From positions 124,001-188,000 of IMG/VR virus record IMGVR_UViG_3300046804_003518: 64,000 bases of DNA. One strand, written 5' to 3'. The notes below the pieces were generated by a model. It did not search any database. It was not told the origin of the DNA and saw nothing but the letters and a program-made list of their open reading frames with translations. Made by a program: the position numbers and the translations under genes. Below are positions 27,920-63,612 of the stretch, piece by piece. Within the stretch, counting starts at the first letter, position 1; each line of letters opens with the position of its first letter. The DNA comes from a virus.

Positions 27920-28690
27920 ATGGCATGTACAATATTAGTAATGGGCTTACCAGGCTCTGGTAAAACCACATTTGCAGAAAAGCTGGCAGCGCTACTCGGC
28001 GATAATGTTGATTGGTATAATGCTGACAAAGTAAGACAGCTTCATAACGATTGGGACTTCTCGCCAGAAGGTAGAATGCGTCAAGCAAAAAGAATGAAGG
28101 ATCTTGCTACAGCATCTAATAAACAAGGTCGTTATGCTATTTGTGATTTTGTATGTCCAACATATGAAACCCAGTCATTGTTTGCCAGCGATATTATTAT
28201 CTGGATGGATACAATCAAAGAAGGTAGATTTGAAGATACTAATAAGATCTTCCAAAGACCACAAGAGTTCATGTTCTGGATCGATAGCTGGGACTATGAA
28301 GATGAGCTTCTTGATATTGCCTATATGATTGTAAGTGAGCATTTTGATTGGACAAAGCCAACTGTTCAGATGATGGGCCGCTATCAGCCATTCCATGATG
28401 GTCATAAGGCTTTGTTTGAAGAGGCTCTAAAGAAGACTGGTCAGGTTGCTATCTTTATCAGGAAGATGCCTGAGGACGAAAAAAATCCATTTGGTCATAG
28501 AGAAACAGAAACTTATATCTTAAAGAAGTTGTCAAACTATCTTGGTAAGTTTCAAATTGTTTGGGTACCTAACATTGTTGACATTTCCTATGGACGTGAT
28601 GTAGGATATACTATTAGTAAGATTGAATTACCCGAAGACATTCAGGCCATCTCAGCAACAAAGATCAGGAAAGAGATGGGAATTGGTTAA
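27920..28690 (+). CDS. APS-kinase-like P-loop domain fused to a nucleotidyltransferase domain
   Basis: 256 residues. Residues about 1-145: GLPGSGKTTFAEKLA (P-loop), WYNADKVRQL, DFSPEGRMRQAKRM and ICDFVCPT, the order found in adenylylsulfate kinases (CysC). Residues about 150-256: MGRYQPFHDGHKALF and ISATKIRKEM, a HxGH nucleotidyltransferase closer to NMN adenylyltransferase than to ATP sulfurylase. One base after the second sulfotransferase. It could make PAPS or another nucleotide intermediate; the substrate of the second half is uncertain. Confidence 0.75.
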   Translation: MACTILVMGLPGSGKTTFAEKLAALLGDNVDWYNADKVRQLHNDWDFSPEGRMRQAKRMKDLATASNKQGRYAICDFVCPTYETQSLFASDIIIWMDTIKEGRFEDTNKIFQRPQEFMFWIDSWDYEDELLDIAYMIVSEHFDWTKPTVQMMGRYQPFHDGHKALFEEALKKTGQVAIFIRKMPEDEKNPFGHRETETYILKKLSNYLGKFQIVWVPNIVDISYGRDVGYTISKIELPEDIQAISATKIRKEMGIG

Positions 28691-31307: not shown

Positions 31308-31349
31308 TTGGTACTGGCTTCTTGGTATTAGTATTTGGTGCAACTACAT

Positions 31350-31683
31350 TTATAGGTTCATTAAAAATTAATGGTAGTAAACTGACGACTAAAGGTGTTC
31401 TGGACGGGGTTTCAATACCCCCATCTCCACCAAATTTAACGTGTGTGTCACACTTTACCAGAGTTGACGACTCTGGCACGGACTACGGGGATGACAGGTT
31501 TCGACAGGGCAAGTAATAAACCGACGGCTACCAGTGAGGCGACTGACTTAATCAGCGCAAACAAAGTAAACGCAAACGATGATGTTTACAACATGGCTCT
31601 AGCTGCCTAAGGCACTAGATTACCAGAGTTGACCGCTTGGTAACAGAAAGGTCGGAGGCGGCAGCTTTCGCTGCCGCCTTTTT
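31350..31683 (+). ncRNA. ssrA: Two-piece permuted tmRNA (acceptor piece, spacer, coding piece)
   Basis: The acceptor piece ends at 31432 with T-arm-like sequence (GGGG, TTCAAT, CCCC), CATCTCC, A and CCA. The coding piece begins at 31487 with GGGGATG, which pairs with CATCTCC over 7 bp including G3:U70, the alanine identity pair. GGTAGT (31373-31378) pairs with GCTACC (31527-31532) as part of helix P2. The tag frame (31572-31610) reads ANDDVYNMALAA then TAA. The 54-base spacer 31433-31486, with a CCAGAGT/ACTCTGG hairpin, would be removed. The 3' piece thus precedes the 5' piece, as in alphaproteobacterial permuted tmRNA. The 5' boundary of the acceptor piece is approximate. Confidence 0.9.
31657..31683 (+). 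terminator. Intrinsic terminator of the tmRNA
   Basis: GGCGGCAG / CTGCCGCC 8-bp stem with loop CTTTCG followed by five T. Confidence 0.85.
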
Positions 31684-31712
31684 CTTCCAACTGCATAAAT
31701 GGAGGTAACAAC

Positions 31713-56160: not shown

Positions 56161-56304
56161 TTTTGATGTCGCGACATCCCTATAGTGTAAGAGTTTGTCT
56201 GTATGGGTAGCACTATATGAATTATGAGAGCTAACAGAATGCATCCTTGCTGTGTGGGGGTAAGGTCTAAGAATGAACCTTAAATGGTAGCCCACACCTT
56301 ATTT
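56161..56304 (+). ncRNA. Structured leader before tRNA-Ala (repeat family copy)
   Basis: It contains GATGT/ACATC, then GTGTAAGAGTTTGTC...GGGTA, the core shared with 59524 and 56610, then GTGTGGG/CCCACAC enclosing TAAGGT/ACCTTA, and ends CCTTATTT at the tRNA. It resembles the leaders before tRNA-Glu, tRNA-Gln and initiator tRNA. Confidence 0.5.
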
Positions 56305-56379
56305 GGGGGATTAGTGCTAATGGGAACACGCCGCGTTTGCATCGCGGAGTTGAGAGTTCGATTCTCTCATCCTCCACCA
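56305..56379 (+). tRNA. tRNA-Ala (TGC)
   Basis: 75 bases with CCA. Acceptor GGGGGAT/ATCCTCC with G3:U70, the alanine identity pair. Loop TTTGCAT. Confidence 0.95.
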
Positions 56380-56382
56380 AAC

Positions 56383-56491
56383 TTGTCATTCGTAAGCCAT
56401 GGGTGATCGTAAAGCCCGAGTAACTGCGCCAACAGAAAACTTCAATTCTAGATACATGAAGGTGAGACGCAGCAGATAGTACGAATGACAA
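56383..56491 (+). ncRNA. Structured RNA closed by a 12-bp perfect stem
   Basis: TTGTCATTCGTA (56383-56394) pairs with TACGAATGACAA (56480-56491). Inside are CTTCA/TGAAG and a GCG/CGC pairing around it, giving a multibranched fold of about 109 bases. No tRNA features and no coding frame. It lies between tRNA-Ala and the hammerhead. Confidence 0.55.
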
Positions 56492-56539
56492 TCTTATTTG
56501 CCCGACACCTCTGCCTCGTGTACGTGTCGGCTGTCTTTT

Positions 56540-56588
56540 CTGTCTCTGATGAGTCCAAAGGGACGAAACGCTGTGAAGCGTCAGACAG
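56540..56588 (+). ncRNA. Type I hammerhead ribozyme
   Basis: Stem I CTGTCT (56540-56545) / AGACAG (56583-56588); core CTGATGA (56546-56552); stem II GTCC-AAAG-GGAC; GAAA (56565-56568); stem III ACGCT / AGCGT with GTGA tetraloop; cleavage site GTC with cut after C56582. All conserved core bases of the hammerhead are present and stems II and III are closed, so stem I is the open end. Predicted to self-cleave the tRNA-array transcript. Confidence 0.9.
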
Positions 56589-56772
56589 CAACTTACCTTA
56601 TGGTGTAAAGTTTGCAATGAGCGATAAAGAATAACAGGGGCATGCCATCTTATGCGAAGGGATGGAACAACATGTGTGACACTCGATCGCAGGTGCAGAG
56701 GTTAGAGTAATTCCAGCAAACCCGTAGTCGCATTACTGAGAGGCTGGCATCCAAAGCAAAACCATACTTATT
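56589..56772 (+). ncRNA. Structured leader before tRNA-Gln (repeat family copy, with pseudoknot)
   Basis: It starts CTTACCTTATGGTGTAAAGTTTG, matching the leader at 59508-59535. Then CCATC/GGATGG, and an H-type pseudoknot: AGTAAT (56706-56711)/ATTACT (56732-56737) crossed by CCAGC (56713-56717)/GCTGG (56743-56747). It ends ACTTATTT at the tRNA. No gene. Confidence 0.5.
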
Positions 56773-56846
56773 TGGGGGTTCGTCTAAAGGTAGGACGCAA
56801 GACTTTGACTCTTGCTATCGTGGTTCGAATCCATGACCCCCAACCA
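56773..56846 (+). tRNA. tRNA-Gln (TTG)
   Basis: 74 bases with CCA. Acceptor TGGGGGT/ACCCCCA, loop CTTTGAC. Confidence 0.95.
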
Positions 56847-57809: not shown

Positions 57810-58166
57810 ATGAACAACATTACACAACAGCTTATCCTTGGATCTTTGTTTGCTCTATTCTGTATTGTATCTGTGTATACAATGGTCGGGTGGAGAGCAA
57901 TTGCTGATTGTTACAGAAAGTTCTTTACAAAAGAATACTGGACCGACTACAATACTGTTGAATTGGCTAGCTGGCTTGCCAAGGCATTTATTATTGTTCC
58001 TGGTTTGATTTTTGGTATTCAGTTCTGGTGGTTATACATATTTACACTGTTTACTAGTCTTACATTAATCTGGGCTAGTAACAGAAAGCTGCTACCTACA
58101 TTGGTTGGTTTTAATACAATTTGGGTGTGGCTATCTTGTATGGCTATTGTGGGACACTTTGTATGA
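57810..58166 (+). CDS. Membrane protein of unknown function
   Basis: 118 residues with three or four hydrophobic segments. No motif recognised. It overlaps the halogenase gene by 4 bases (ATGA), so the two are probably co-translated. Confidence 0.55.
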   Translation: MNNITQQLILGSLFALFCIVSVYTMVGWRAIADCYRKFFTKEYWTDYNTVELASWLAKAFIIVPGLIFGIQFWWLYIFTLFTSLTLIWASNRKLLPTLVGFNTIWVWLSCMAIVGHFV

Positions 58167-59362
58167 CAAAAAGAATAGCAGTAATAGGAGCAGGAACAGC
58201 TGGTGCAATATCAGCTGGAATGTTCTTACGTCACTTTCCAGATGATGAAATACAATGGTATTTTGACTCAAGCATATCTCCCCAGGCAGTCGGCGAGGGG
58301 TCAAATCTAGGTGTTCCTAGAATGCTTCTTAACACAGTCAATTTTAGATACCAAGACTTATTTGCAATCCAAGGAACAATTAAGATGGGGATTGCAAAAT
58401 ATAATTGGGGCTCAAAGAACAATTACTTTTTTCACGACTTTGGTCCACCATTAGTTGGTTACCATTTCAATGCTGTTGGTTTACAACAACACATCTTATC
58501 TGTTATTAAAGACAAAGTAACTGTCATTGATAAGAATGTTACAAGAGATACGATTGATGCTGACTATGTTATTGATTGCTCTGGCAGACCAAAAACATTT
58601 GAAGATTACAATGTTCTAGATTGCATTCCTGTTAACTCAGTCCATGTTACACAATGCTTTTGGGATTATCCAAAGTTTGTCCACACATTGACAATTGCGA
58701 GGAAGCATGGTTGGGTATTTGGTATACCTTTACAGAATAGGTGTTCAATTGGATACCTATTCAACAACAATATTAGTAGTCTTGAGGATGTGAAAGAAGA
58801 TGTTAAGGAAGTGTTTGAGCAGTTTGGTCTCCAGCCAAGTGATACTACCAATACGTTTTCGTTTTCCTCATACTATAAAAAGGTAAACTACACTGACAGA
58901 GTTGCATTCAATGGCAACGCATCATTCTTTTCTGAGCCACTAGAGGCCACAACAATTGGAAATATGGTTGAGGTCAATTCAAGAATGGTTCATATAATTA
59001 ACAATAATCTTTCACCAGAAAAAGCCAACAAATTTTATAATGCCTTAAATAGGGGTGTCGGTGATATGATATCCCTACACTACTTTGCTGGCTCTACATT
59101 CAACACTCCATTTTGGAGCCATGCGTCAACATTGGCTACAGCTCAAATTAGGAAAGCGTGCCAGACAAGGACTTTCAGAAGAATGATTACAGCCGCAGTT
59201 GACCATATACTTGCAAACCAATCGTTTCCAAGTTTATTAGAGAAAGCAAAGACATTTCCAATTCCAGAGTGGGGAAGTTGGCCACTTGTGGCTTATTATA
59301 CTAATATTCAAGGACTAGGTATTGTTGAACAGTTGAAGCAAGTCCTAGATGAAACAAAATAA
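58163..59362 (+). CDS. Flavin-dependent halogenase-like protein (tryptophan halogenase family)
   Basis: 399 residues from ATG at 58163. IAVIGAGTAGAISAGMFL is the FAD-binding GxGxxG motif; VGEGSNLGVPRMLL corresponds to the GEAT/Lys region of tryptophan halogenases with the Lys not obvious; GWVFGIPLQNRCSIGYLF matches the WxWxIP region; FFSEPLEATTIG is the second FAD motif. Shorter than typical halogenases (about 520-540). Related genes occur in marine phages. The reaction may be halogenation or only flavin monooxygenation. Confidence 0.75.
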   Translation: MTKRIAVIGAGTAGAISAGMFLRHFPDDEIQWYFDSSISPQAVGEGSNLGVPRMLLNTVNFRYQDLFAIQGTIKMGIAKYNWGSKNNYFFHDFGPPLVGYHFNAVGLQQHILSVIKDKVTVIDKNVTRDTIDADYVIDCSGRPKTFEDYNVLDCIPVNSVHVTQCFWDYPKFVHTLTIARKHGWVFGIPLQNRCSIGYLFNNNISSLEDVKEDVKEVFEQFGLQPSDTTNTFSFSSYYKKVNYTDRVAFNGNASFFSEPLEATTIGNMVEVNSRMVHIINNNLSPEKANKFYNALNRGVGDMISLHYFAGSTFNTPFWSHASTLATAQIRKACQTRTFRRMITAAVDHILANQSFPSLLEKAKTFPIPEWGSWPLVAYYTNIQGLGIVEQLKQVLDETK

Positions 59363-59485: not shown

Positions 59486-59622
59486 GTTTTAAGTTTTATA
59501 AATATGTCTTACCCGCCCTACCTTTCGGTGTAAGGTTTGTCGCATAGCGATGGGTATTTTTGTAAGTAGGAATCTAGGGCATAGTGCGCACTGTGTGACG
59601 ATAGATGAACCGAGACCTTTAT
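59486..59622 (+). ncRNA. Structured leader before initiator tRNA (repeat family copy)
   Basis: It contains a late octamer TATAAATA (59497-59504), then CTTACC...GGTGTAAGGTTTGTCGC, TCGC/GCGA, GGGTATTTTTGTAAG, and GCATAGTGCGCACTGTGTGACG with AACCGAGACCTTTATT next to the tRNA. The parts align with the leaders at 55700, 56185 and 56596. No gene. Confidence 0.5.
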
Positions 59623-59704: not shown

Positions 59705-59977
59705 ATGACACTAGACCAATTCAATAGCGTGTTTCCATTCGTGGCAAGTATTGCCATCATAATGAACATTCATAGACTATTGAGGGATAAAATAGTTAAG
59801 GGTATTCACCCATTCAGTCCTCTCATTGGATACGCTGGTCAGATCTCTGGAACTACTCTTCTCTATCATCTTGGTCAATACTACTCAGCAATAGCTGGTG
59901 CATGGTACACACTGTTGTCTTTGACGTGGTATTGTATGATGATATACTATAACTTTTATAAGAAAGCGCCTGGTTAG
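59705..59977 (+). CDS. Small membrane protein
   Basis: 90 residues with about three hydrophobic segments (9-25, 40-60, 62-80). No motif recognised, though the size and HPFSPLIGYAG-like turn recall small MtN3/PQ-loop units. It lies among tRNA genes and its 3' end overlaps a tRNA-like fragment. Confidence 0.5.
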   Translation: MTLDQFNSVFPFVASIAIIMNIHRLLRDKIVKGIHPFSPLIGYAGQISGTTLLYHLGQYYSAIAGAWYTLLSLTWYCMMIYYNFYKKAPG

Positions 59978-59990
59978 CTCAGCTGGTAAA
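59968..59990 (+). pseudogene. tRNA 5'-fragment
   Basis: GCCTGGT-TA-GCTC-AGCTGGTA is an acceptor strand plus D-arm start as in tRNA-Lys at 55836, but the D-stem does not close and no 3' half is found. The HNH gene and its late promoter follow. It looks like a tRNA cut by insertion of the homing gene. Confidence 0.55.
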
Positions 59991-60001
59991 ATGGTAGACC
60001 T

Positions 60002-60009
60002 TATAAATA
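60002..60009 (+). promoter_or_regulatory. T4-type late promoter TATAAATA
   Basis: Exact octamer just before the AGGAGGAGG ribosome site of the HNH gene at 60027; the spacing to the ATG is short (17 bases). Confidence 0.6.
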
Positions 60010-60026
60010 TAAGGAGGAGGTCTACT

Positions 60027-60449
60027 ATGAACACGTACAATTGTTTGCATTGCAATAAACAATGCAAGAAGGGATATAGCAAAAAGAATAAGTTTTGCAG
60101 CAACGCGTGCCAAGGGAAACACAAGTGGGTTTGCGAAACAGTTCCCAGAATAGAACGTGGTGAATGTAGCGAGGCTCCAACACTTGCCAAATATCTAATT
60201 GAACAGCATGGCAAAAGATGTAAGGGGTGCGGCATAGGCGATATATGGAATGGTAAGCCACTTACATTACAAGTGGACCATATCGATGGTAACAGTGACA
60301 ACAACCAAGTTATTAATCTAAGACTACTATGTCCCAATTGCCATACACAAACAGAAACATATGGTAGTAAAGGTCTAGGCAATAGGTACAGAAAAGGTAC
60401 TAGACGGAATACATACAAAAGAGATTATCATAAAGCACGGATGGTCTGA
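60027..60449 (+). CDS. HNH homing endonuclease
   Basis: 140 residues from ATG at 60027 with a consensus AGGAGG. A zinc-ribbon CLHCNKQC...FCSNACQGKH precedes the HNH core CKGCG...LQVDHIDGNSDNNQVINL and CPNCH. It sits inside the tRNA array; its last 15 bases overlap the 5' end of tRNA-Val. A typical mobile gene. Confidence 0.9.
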   Translation: MNTYNCLHCNKQCKKGYSKKNKFCSNACQGKHKWVCETVPRIERGECSEAPTLAKYLIEQHGKRCKGCGIGDIWNGKPLTLQVDHIDGNSDNNQVINLRLLCPNCHTQTETYGSKGLGNRYRKGTRRNTYKRDYHKARMV

Positions 60450-61137: not shown

Positions 61138-61824
61138 ATGAACAGTATAAAAACATTTACAATTGATCAGCAACTAGCAGACCAGCTAGAGCAAGAAGTT
61201 ATAACGAGTAGTATACCAAAATACACTTACCTTAAAAGAACAGCTGAATATCCTTACAACAATAGAAGTCCTACAGCTGGTGGTATGAAAATAATACATG
61301 CCCAAGGATTCACCAACGGTGTCTATACAATGCATAGACACTTCCCCCTCCATGGTTCGTTTGAAGATATGCTAAAGAAAGACCCAACGAATACAGCTGT
61401 GGTCGCTCCTAGCATTGCCAATATAACTTTTCATCTGAGAGAAAGATTTTTAGATCCTTCATATGATGTCGTAAGAGTCTATGCTAATATTATGACAATT
61501 GGAGTAGAGTATGGGGTGCTTGATCCCCATCCAGACCTCAAGGATCCAGATGCAGTGACATTTCTTTACTATGTTATTGATAGTGATGGGGATACGTTTA
61601 TCTTTGATGAAAAAGAAGACAAAGTGGTCTCTAGGCATTCGCCTAAAAAGGGAACAGGAATAATGTACCCATCATCAACTATTCATGCTGCCTCTGTGCC
61701 AATGAAGCACGAAATCAGATCGGCATTGAATATCATATACGGTAAGAATTATTATAAAAGATTTGGTCAAAATGTTATAGATCAATATAACCAACACCGT
61801 GTGAAACAAACAAGACGACGCTAA
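61138..61824 (+). CDS. 2-oxoglutarate/Fe(II) oxygenase, array member 1
   Basis: 228 residues. DPHPDLKD supplies HxD, LYYVIDSDGDTFIF the central strands, PSSTIHAASVP the second His and EIRSALNIIY the Arg for 2-oxoglutarate. All Fe and co-substrate residues are present. Substrate unknown: a protein, nucleic acid base or small molecule. First of four related genes here, interrupted by a methyltransferase and a tRNA. Confidence 0.8.
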   Translation: MNSIKTFTIDQQLADQLEQEVITSSIPKYTYLKRTAEYPYNNRSPTAGGMKIIHAQGFTNGVYTMHRHFPLHGSFEDMLKKDPTNTAVVAPSIANITFHLRERFLDPSYDVVRVYANIMTIGVEYGVLDPHPDLKDPDAVTFLYYVIDSDGDTFIFDEKEDKVVSRHSPKKGTGIMYPSSTIHAASVPMKHEIRSALNIIYGKNYYKRFGQNVIDQYNQHRVKQTRRR

Positions 61825-61833
61825 GGAGTAGTT

Positions 61834-62415
61834 ATGGCATACCTACCAGAGTATTTGGCATTTGTAACAGAAGCAATTAGGCTCGAGTTCTTTCAGCCTA
61901 ATGGACTATGGATGTTTGAGCTTGGTAATCAAAGATTTATTGGTGGTCAGTTTACAACAGGCAAAGAACATTTTGAAAATCTTGGCATGGCCCACACATC
62001 AGTGGACTTGAATGGAGAGGATGGTGCCCTACCTCTTGATCTAAGATGTCCAGAAATGTTCTACAAATTTAGATGTAAGTATGATGTTCTTACCAACCTT
62101 GGTACCACAGAGCATGTGGAGCCAATTGAAAAGCAATACGAATGCTTTTCTATTGTCCACGACGTTGTCAAACCAGGTGGTATTATGATTCACATGGTTC
62201 CTGATGTCGAAGAGCTAGACAACTCAGGAGCATGGAATGGGCATTGTAATGTATACTATAGAAAAGAATTTTTTGATAAGTTAGCTGAGCATTGTGACTA
62301 TACAGTACTAGAGAATAAAGTTATATTTGGTTTAAGGTCTGTTGTCCTGAGAAAGGAAAATGCAATAGGATTTACTACTAACACTGATATCTTTAACCTA
62401 ATTGAATATCGATGA
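61834..62415 (+). CDS. SAM-dependent methyltransferase-like protein
   Basis: 193 residues. MFELGNQRFIGG is a degenerate motif I; DVLTNLGTTEHVEPIEKQY and VKPGGIMIHMVPD match the later motifs of Methyltransf_11-like enzymes. It sits within the oxygenase array, with AAGGAG upstream and ATGA overlap downstream, so it may act on the same substrate as the oxygenases. Confidence 0.65.
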   Translation: MAYLPEYLAFVTEAIRLEFFQPNGLWMFELGNQRFIGGQFTTGKEHFENLGMAHTSVDLNGEDGALPLDLRCPEMFYKFRCKYDVLTNLGTTEHVEPIEKQYECFSIVHDVVKPGGIMIHMVPDVEELDNSGAWNGHCNVYYRKEFFDKLAEHCDYTVLENKVIFGLRSVVLRKENAIGFTTNTDIFNLIEYR

Positions 62416-63050
62416 TGAAGCCTTTTACTGTACCCAATGAACTAGCCAATAAGTTAGAAAGTGATGCAATGCATCTACTTACTACAAACAAACCAGTATG
62501 GAGACTACTTACTGGAATGGAAAATTATAGTCCAATGGAATTAGCTAGACGTAAGGTACTTAGTGAGGCAGTAAATATACCACTGAAAGAACCAACGTGC
62601 CTCTTTGATCCAATTTATTATTCATCAAGAGACTATCAGTCGCATGGTACCTTTGAGCGGATGGTTAAAAAGGTACCTCCGGCTATTCCAAGTATTGTAA
62701 ATTTAGTTAATTATCTTCGTGATGCATATCTTGATCCTTCATATGATTTGTGTAGGCTATATGTTAACCTATTATCGAAGGCACCAAGAACTCTATTTCC
62801 TCCCCACATGGATTGGAATAAAGATGGTAGTTATACTTTCCTCTATTATATTATAGATAGTGATGGCGAGACATTTGTGTTTGATAAAGATACAAATCAA
62901 GTAGCAGGGCAGGCGTTGCCTAAGAAGGGGACAGGAATTTATTTCCCTTCATCAACTATCCACGCCGCATCAACACCAGTGGTCTCAGAAGTTCGTCTTG
63001 TAGCCAATGTTGTCTTTTGTAAAGACTTCTTCAAACAGAACAAGATGTAA
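62412..63050 (+). CDS. 2-oxoglutarate/Fe(II) oxygenase, array member 2
   Basis: 212 residues. FPPHMDWNKDG gives HxD, FLYYIIDSDGETFVF, PSSTIHAASTP and EVRLVANVVF follow in the same order as member 1, to which it is clearly paralogous. The N-terminal 60 residues differ most between members and may set the substrate. Confidence 0.8.
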   Translation: MMKPFTVPNELANKLESDAMHLLTTNKPVWRLLTGMENYSPMELARRKVLSEAVNIPLKEPTCLFDPIYYSSRDYQSHGTFERMVKKVPPAIPSIVNLVNYLRDAYLDPSYDLCRLYVNLLSKAPRTLFPPHMDWNKDGSYTFLYYIIDSDGETFVFDKDTNQVAGQALPKKGTGIYFPSSTIHAASTPVVSEVRLVANVVFCKDFFKQNKM

Positions 63051-63051
63051 T

Positions 63052-63612
63052 ATGGTAACTTTAGTAAACAATATACCTTCAGTTATATCTGATCGAGTAG
63101 AAGATTGGGTGACGGGAACAAAAATTCCATGGTTTTATTTTAACCACACTCTCGGTGTCAACCCTAAGGGAGCGTATAGCGTTGACCAGGACAAGTATAT
63201 CATCAAAGACCTTCCTAGGTTCACACACTACTTTTTTCCAAACTCAAAAACATTAGTAGAGGATAAGGCTGCTATTCAACCATTGACCGAATGGATAAAG
63301 GCTAACTATTTACCTAATTATGATGTGAAGAGGGTAATGGGTAACCTCACAACACAAATGGCTGATGCTAACAAATATTTAAACATACCGCATGTTGATT
63401 CAGATGCTGATACAATGTATACTTTTCTTTACTATGTAAATAGTAGCGATGGAAAGACAGTGTTCTTTAAAGACAGAAAAATTGATTGTGAGGTAGACCC
63501 TATAAAGGGAACTGGTGCTTTGTTTCCGTCAAATGTTATTCATGCCGGCCAAATTCCACATATAAATACAAGCAGGTATGTGATTAATATTATCTTTTCA
63601 AAGCGGGATTGA
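63052..63612 (+). CDS. 2-oxoglutarate/Fe(II) oxygenase, array member 3
   Basis: 186 residues from ATG at 63052, one base after the previous stop. NIPHVDSDAD gives HxD, FLYYVNSSDGKTVFF, PSNVIHAGQIP and SRYVINIIF the remaining motifs. The end of the gene (tga at 63610) overlaps the tRNA-Gly start by 10 bases. Confidence 0.8.
   Translation: MVTLVNNIPSVISDRVEDWVTGTKIPWFYFNHTLGVNPKGAYSVDQDKYIIKDLPRFTHYFFPNSKTLVEDKAAIQPLTEWIKANYLPNYDVKRVMGNLTTQMADANKYLNIPHVDSDADTMYTFLYYVNSSDGKTVFFKDRKIDCEVDPIKGTGALFPSNVIHAGQIPHINTSRYVINIIFSKRD

Follow-up and report, generated by a model that had tools for sequence, protein, structure and literature searches.

HDV-like theta ribozymes fold into a nested double pseudoknot and cut at their own 5' end. 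In gut phages they have been proposed to cut the 3' trailer of tRNAs (PMC10879173); the word "hammerhead" is absent from that paper. HDV-like ribozymes near phage tRNAs had also been mentioned in the initial annotation of the present locus. Type I hammerheads of bacteria and prophages (RF00163) were described by Perreault et al. in 2011, who reported many such ribozymes from phages and bacteria without a clear role for them (PMC3088659). Those of prophages flank protein genes, e.g. ardA and integrase, and were proposed to act as cutters of long transcripts, and "tRNA" occurs in the text of that paper only in a reference title (PMC3088659). A variant hammerhead of PaP3 was tested in the same study (PMC3088659); PaP3 carries four tRNAs, and no hammerhead was detected in it by RF00163, Rfam or our own descriptor. 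A search of openly accessible journal papers yielded no description of a hammerhead within a phage tRNA array.

The hammerhead described here resembles the published bacterial and prophage examples in its canonical core, three stems, NUH site, open stem I and phage setting. Unlike the prophage hammerheads of PMC3088659, however, it lies in a tRNA array and forms the fixed front end of a conserved non-coding RNA (ncRNA), and it belongs to a known class of ribozyme whose arrangement here is new and conserved. Theta ribozymes and hammerheads are alike in being self-cleaving and tied to phage tRNAs, but their folds differ: no HDV-like Rfam match was obtained at 56540-56588, where the fold is that of a hammerhead. 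Theta ribozymes having been proposed for the 3' ends of tRNAs, hammerheads at 5' ends would be their complement.

The hammerhead and its place in the tRNA array

The window analysed here is a stretch of 64,000 nucleotides of viral DNA, positions 124,001-188,000 of IMG/VR record IMGVR_UViG_3300046804_003518; coordinates are given in window numbering, and L-numbers are labels of compared contigs or loci. For the primase of the virus, the closest sequences are from Stenotrophomonas phage DLP_6 (49%) and from T4-like cyanophages (about 45%), and its ribonucleotide reductase shares 63% identity with an unannotated contig of a faecal phage and 60% with that of an Alcaligenes phage. Within the window, 23 tRNAs form an array on the + strand, and the hammerhead sits between tRNA-Ala and tRNA-Gln of this array, as first annotated. 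The features are as follows, the parts of the ribozyme being assigned from sequence:

56305-56379, + strand: tRNA-Ala(TGC), upstream neighbour of the hammerhead
56540-56588, + strand: type I hammerhead ribozyme (sequence, Rfam match, minimum free energy (MFE) fold, stem III covariation)
56540-56545 and 56583-56588, + strand: stem I, CTGTCT/AGACAG, 6 bp
56546-56552, + strand: core CTGATGA
56553-56556 and 56561-56564, + strand: stem II, GTCC/GGAC, 4 bp, loop AAAG
56565-56568, + strand: GAAA
56568-56572 and 56577-56581, + strand: stem III, ACGCT/AGCGT, 5 bp, GTGA (GNRA) loop
Between 56582 and 56583, + strand: predicted cleavage site GTC^A, with C17 at 56582
56773-56846, + strand: tRNA-Gln(TTG), downstream neighbour, beginning 6 nt past the ncRNA

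Neither tRNA is adjacent to the ribozyme, which starts 160 nt past the end of tRNA-Ala; the cut falls 203 nt past this end and 190 nt before the start of tRNA-Gln. All parts of a type I hammerhead had been listed in the right order by the initial annotation, with which both the sequence and Rfam agree. The search of the Rfam hammerhead models that it had proposed returned Hammerhead_1 (RF00163), with the boundaries of the match at exactly 56540 and 56588; it scored 33.9 bits, the gathering score being 34 (E 9.1e-7, Rfam cmscan of 501 bases). A default Rfam gathering-threshold scan misses the hammerhead by 0.1 bit. In the whole IMG/VR record (188,323 bases) this is the sole RF00163 match (E 7.9e-8), and the remaining tRNAs of the array are without a hammerhead by this model.

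The features of RF00163 are present, namely the conserved core CUGANGA ... GAAA, three helices in the right order with stem I open and stems II and III closed by loops, the A15.1-U16.1 pair, and the NUH cleavage triplet (GUC, 56580-56582). The last A of GAAA is at the same time the first A of stem III (56568), and the hammerhead fold is the MFE structure of the isolated 49-mer. The hammerhead at 56540-56588 is confirmed as real and complete, with an intact core. By hammerhead chemistry, the upstream product would end in a 2',3'-cyclic phosphate and the downstream product would begin with a 5'-OH, the latter being predicted here at 56583. Stem I lacks an obvious distal loop, loop II is NNAG, and both loop II and stem I vary little or not at all. 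With no evident loop for the usual contact between stem I and loop II, cleavage may be slow.

A general hammerhead pattern was found at at least 120 phage loci, and the subfamily pattern CTGTCT-CTGANGA-GTCC..GGAC-GAAAC in 31 contigs. Among 12 distinct copies, standard pairs occupied 99.4% of the hammerhead pair cells and three pairs of stem III were changed on both sides; the covariation score was 0.203 compared to 0.073 for shuffled alignments, a value reached by 0/500 shuffles, with slid partners giving at most 0.05. Stem I and the C that follows it are near-invariant among the relatives. Stem II is compensated in L146 (GTTC/GAAC), and stem III carries long inserts in L130, L131, L137, L142 and L146, in which the closing helix and GTC^ or GTA^ are kept. 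The upstream tRNA often ends only a few bases before the hammerhead (tRNA-Trp in L134, tRNA-Asp in L041 and L123). Pattern matches in L145, L147 and L148 were rejected, as they are without a hammerhead, a nearby tRNA or the ncRNA.

A conserved structured RNA beginning at the cut

A type I hammerhead cuts itself close to its 3' end, so the cut defines where the following RNA begins. In the window the RNA that follows is a conserved structured ncRNA, absent from the initial annotation, which lies directly 3' of the cut here and in about 22 more contigs; 15 distinct sequences were aligned:

56583 to about 56766, + strand: conserved structured ncRNA (alignment, covariation)
56590-56594 and 56608-56612, + strand: stem P1
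Variable domain, + strand: P2
56692-56695 and 56748-56751, + strand: stem P3
56713-56717 and 56743-56747, + strand: stem P4
56599-56604, + strand: pseudoknot 5' strand TATGGT, a loop strand with its partner at 56761-56766
56761-56766, + strand: pseudoknot 3' strand ACCATA, at the 3' end of the ncRNA

From 5' to 3', the RNA consists of a stem around ACCTTRTGGTGTA, the variable domain, AGGTTAGA..ATCC, a hairpin and GGCRTCCAAAG..AAACCAYA. The pseudoknot is paired in 96.7% of cells over the 15 sequences, with two pairs changed on both sides, and its strands vary in step (TATGGT/ACCATA, TGTGGT/ACCACA and GGTGGT/ACCACC). Taken together, the pseudoknot, P3 and P4 gave a covariation score of 0.222 compared to 0.130 for shuffled alignments (reached by 0/500), although some members of the family keep certain pairs of P3 and P4 poorly. 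P1 fits the window, L143, L146 and L041, and was excluded from the covariation count because members of the GACC type need a shifted register.

The linkage of the two elements is constant in one direction. A scan with the 3' end of the ncRNA only, and thus independent of the hammerhead, returned 16 viral contigs. Fifteen of these are true members, each with the hammerhead; the sixteenth, L145, is a chance match in a different sequence context. The reverse does not apply, since about a dozen phages (L005, L032, L058, L099, L124, L127, L128, L132 and L138-L141) have a small ORF (MTKTERVLTALQ...) in place of the ncRNA downstream of the same hammerhead. In several of these small-ORF contigs, a GACAG/CTGTC helix could form at the 5' terminus of the 3' product, and stem I would then be disrupted once the cut has been made.

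The region 56583-56766 has no match of its own in Rfam, and no match to the hammerhead and ncRNA was found among the named phages of INPHARED, where a weak match in Klebsiella phage KpnP_VR702 (38 bases, E 0.9) was rejected as it lies inside an annotated CDS. What is newly exposed is a covarying, hammerhead-headed ncRNA in phage tRNA arrays, of which no earlier description was found.

The ncRNA shows a likeness to the COG2908 RNA (RF02939), listed in Rfam as cis-regulatory. As in that RNA, the 5' domain of the ncRNA is a stem enclosing ACCUUNNGGUGUA, with a loop that can pair with a 3' strand of the AACC type. The COG2908 RNA differs, however, in having no hammerhead, an Rfam model of only 45 nt and a different overall sequence. 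With E values up to 10 allowed, RF02939 (gathering score 58.7 bits) did not match 56583-56766; it matched the hammerhead-linked RNA weakly in L134 and L135 (15-19 bits, E about 0.002). A true COG2908 RNA occurs in a spacer of the same array (59511-59555, 70.7 bits), with a ACCTTTCGGTGTA hairpin and the same layout as the hammerhead-linked ncRNA. The two RNAs are treated here as probably related rather than as one family. The COG2908 spacer (59486-59622) sits between tRNA-Thr and tRNA-Met, and a possible pseudoknot between the hairpin loop and a downstream strand at the 3' end extends past the Rfam model (TCGGT/ACCGA in the window, TTCGGT/ACCGAA in L143).

GOLLD and ROOL are structured RNAs found near phage tRNAs; both are much larger than the ncRNA, and neither has an Rfam match in the window. 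The window also encodes a permuted, two-piece tmRNA gene (31321-31701, tag ANDDVYNMALAA, RF04321 135 bits), and a permuted tmRNA occurs in L130 as well.

Hammerheads at the 5' ends of tRNAs in other phages

One hammerhead descriptor and ARAGORN were applied to all loci, together with a targeted scan. Thirteen hammerheads of other phages are predicted to cut either directly at a tRNA 5' end (offset 0) or one base before it (offset -1), the tRNA being tRNA-Tyr in most cases:

L083, L087, L105, L088 (second), L151, L163, L171, L183: cut at the first base of tRNA-Tyr
L088 (first), L182 (second): cut at the first base of a Tyr-like tRNA with paired acceptor and CCA, where ARAGORN lists none
L045 and L158 (tRNA-His), L161 (tRNA-Gly): cut one base upstream of the tRNA

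The same design appears to be placed directly on tRNAs, with the cut predicted on the first base of the tRNA, and the 5' strand of the tRNA acceptor serves in all 13 as the 3' strand of stem I. L087 and L105 are near-identical loci, and the first Tyr-like tRNA of L088 has partial Rfam support. Both tRNA-His (L045, L158) have C73, which makes the extra base G-1, as RNase P would leave it; the tRNA-Gly of L161 keeps one extra U. At L045:1359-1580 the hammerhead is nested between tRNA-Gln and tRNA-His, and stem I is formed by the 3' GCCA of the preceding tRNA-Gln and the 5' end of tRNA-His, and the predicted cut leaves G-1.

No other annotated tRNA in the phage loci starts less than 40 nt downstream of a cut, and the same pattern, run on 84,980 bacterial and archaeal genomes, yielded 48 contigs and no exact tRNA 5'-end case. 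The only convincing case on a cellular contig is L197, from Microbacterium, with a hammerhead 15 nt before tRNA-Leu. INPHARED gave no match to the hammerhead-tRNA pair of L088, and matches at tRNA-Phe and tRNA-Ser/Glu were rejected because CTGANGAG lies in or beside the tRNA sequence and the hammerhead fold is absent. In an unselected sample of phage hammerheads, 13/133 lay within 200 nt of a tRNA on the same strand, where 6.0 would be expected if they were placed at random in these loci (P about 0.0005).

The view that hammerheads mature phage tRNAs, put forward with the initial annotation, is supported in other phages, by cuts predicted exactly at tRNA 5' ends; in the window the cut makes no tRNA end. 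If these predictions are true, the ribozyme product in several phages would be a mature tRNA 5' end with a 5'-OH, including the G-1 of tRNA-His, and tRNA 5' ends would then be matured by a ribozyme that is not RNase P. A broader reading, placed by us midway between doubtful and probable, is that hammerheads of phage arrays are a general, RNase P-independent means of setting 5' ends, those of tRNAs elsewhere and those of a new class of ncRNA in the lineage of the window. The sequences suggest that some phages may trim their own RNAs without host enzymes. The fixed ncRNA link and the exact tRNA 5'-end cuts would provide phage hammerheads with concrete, testable jobs, of which no description was found in the literature searched.

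The records of L088 and L151 contain RtcB, and that of L182 an Rnl1-type ligase beside a kinase-like domain; the presence of such RNA end-repair genes is suggestive only. Neither RtcB (PF01139) nor a T4 Rnl1-type ligase (PF09511) was found in the record of the window, and a kinase-like ORF (27920-28690) considered as an RNA kinase was rejected, as it looks like an APS-kinase/cytidylyltransferase fusion.

Readings of the cut and competing folds

In the window, the hammerhead probably serves as a 5' processing module that releases the conserved ncRNA from a long tRNA-array precursor. The array would be transcribed as a single long precursor, in which the hammerhead would fold and, given its intact core and conserved fold, cleave itself after C56582. 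This would free the ncRNA (56583 to about 56766) and give it a defined start with a 5'-OH, the 3' end probably arising when the host (RNase P) matures the 5' end of tRNA-Gln, six bases on. Splitting of the tRNA precursor would be an expected side effect of this release; the freed RNA presumably has a function, and tRNA maturation may benefit. The initial annotation had suggested that self-cleavage helps to process the tRNA precursor. The cut would indeed split this precursor, but the end it makes is the 5' end of the ncRNA and not that of a tRNA.

Whether tRNA maturation could nevertheless be the main purpose, with the hammerhead splitting the precursor and host RNases finishing tRNA-Ala and tRNA-Gln, is a question raised by its location within the 23-tRNA array and by the exact 5'-end hammerheads of other phages. 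The distances to both tRNAs, 190 and 203 nt, the coincidence of the cut with the start of the conserved ncRNA, and the other tRNAs of the array, which have no hammerhead, make this unlikely. The occurrence of the same cassette before the small ORF in L005, L032, L058, L099 and others, together with the assorted genes flanked by phage hammerheads (PMC3088659), would also be in line with a mobile cassette that cuts phage transcripts in general and has no special tie to the ncRNA. Such a general cutter is improbable in view of the hammerhead being at the same place in 15/15 independently found members of the ncRNA family.

A further alternative concerns the folding of this particular transcript, in which a decoy strand upstream of the ribozyme, found in this phage only, could capture the 3' strand of stem I:

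56500-56531, + strand: hairpin upstream of the ribozyme (hammerhead-constrained folds)
56530-56536, + strand: decoy strand GCTGTCT, able to pair with AGACAGC at 56583-56589 and replace stem I

With its natural flanks, the inactive fold of the window is predicted to be better by 4.8-7.3 kcal/mol, compared to an advantage of 0 to 2.3 kcal/mol when close relatives are folded. The hammerhead might consequently be silenced or switched by the decoy, either through decay or as a means of control. However, the energy model ignores the tertiary contacts of the hammerhead, and the upstream hairpin, whose 3' strand shares G56530-C56531 with the decoy, would form first and occupy part of it. Moreover, decay would not have preserved the core and stems, all of which are fully intact, and silencing or switching is judged very improbable. 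Activity of the hammerhead in the native transcript is uncertain, because the inactive fold is favoured in the predictions, but the upstream hairpin would form first and tertiary contacts are ignored. Finally, a functionless chance match, for which only the score 0.1 bit below the Rfam gathering score could speak, is refuted by the covariation of stem III and the conservation in 31 other contigs, alongside the E-value of 7.9e-8.

Several other elements of the array may also be recorded. A second structured spacer RNA (56383-56492) has a perfect 12-bp helix, TTGTCATTCGTA/TACGAATGACAA, that closes about 110 nt; it shows 93% identity over 118 nt to L134:8397-8514 and is conserved in L136 and L143. 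The spacer at 56161-56304 (CTATAGTGTA...GCACTATA) has a layout like that of the hammerhead-linked RNA and a 75% match over 88 nt to L134:7992-8074. A fragment resembling a tRNA 5' half (GGTTAGCTCAGCTGGTA) lies directly before an HNH endonuclease ORF in the array (59967-60449) and is perhaps a disrupted tRNA gene. A tryptophan halogenase-like ORF is located within the array (58121-59362), and past the array, at 61138-63612, there are three 2OG-Fe(II) oxygenase-like ORFs and a methyltransferase-like ORF.
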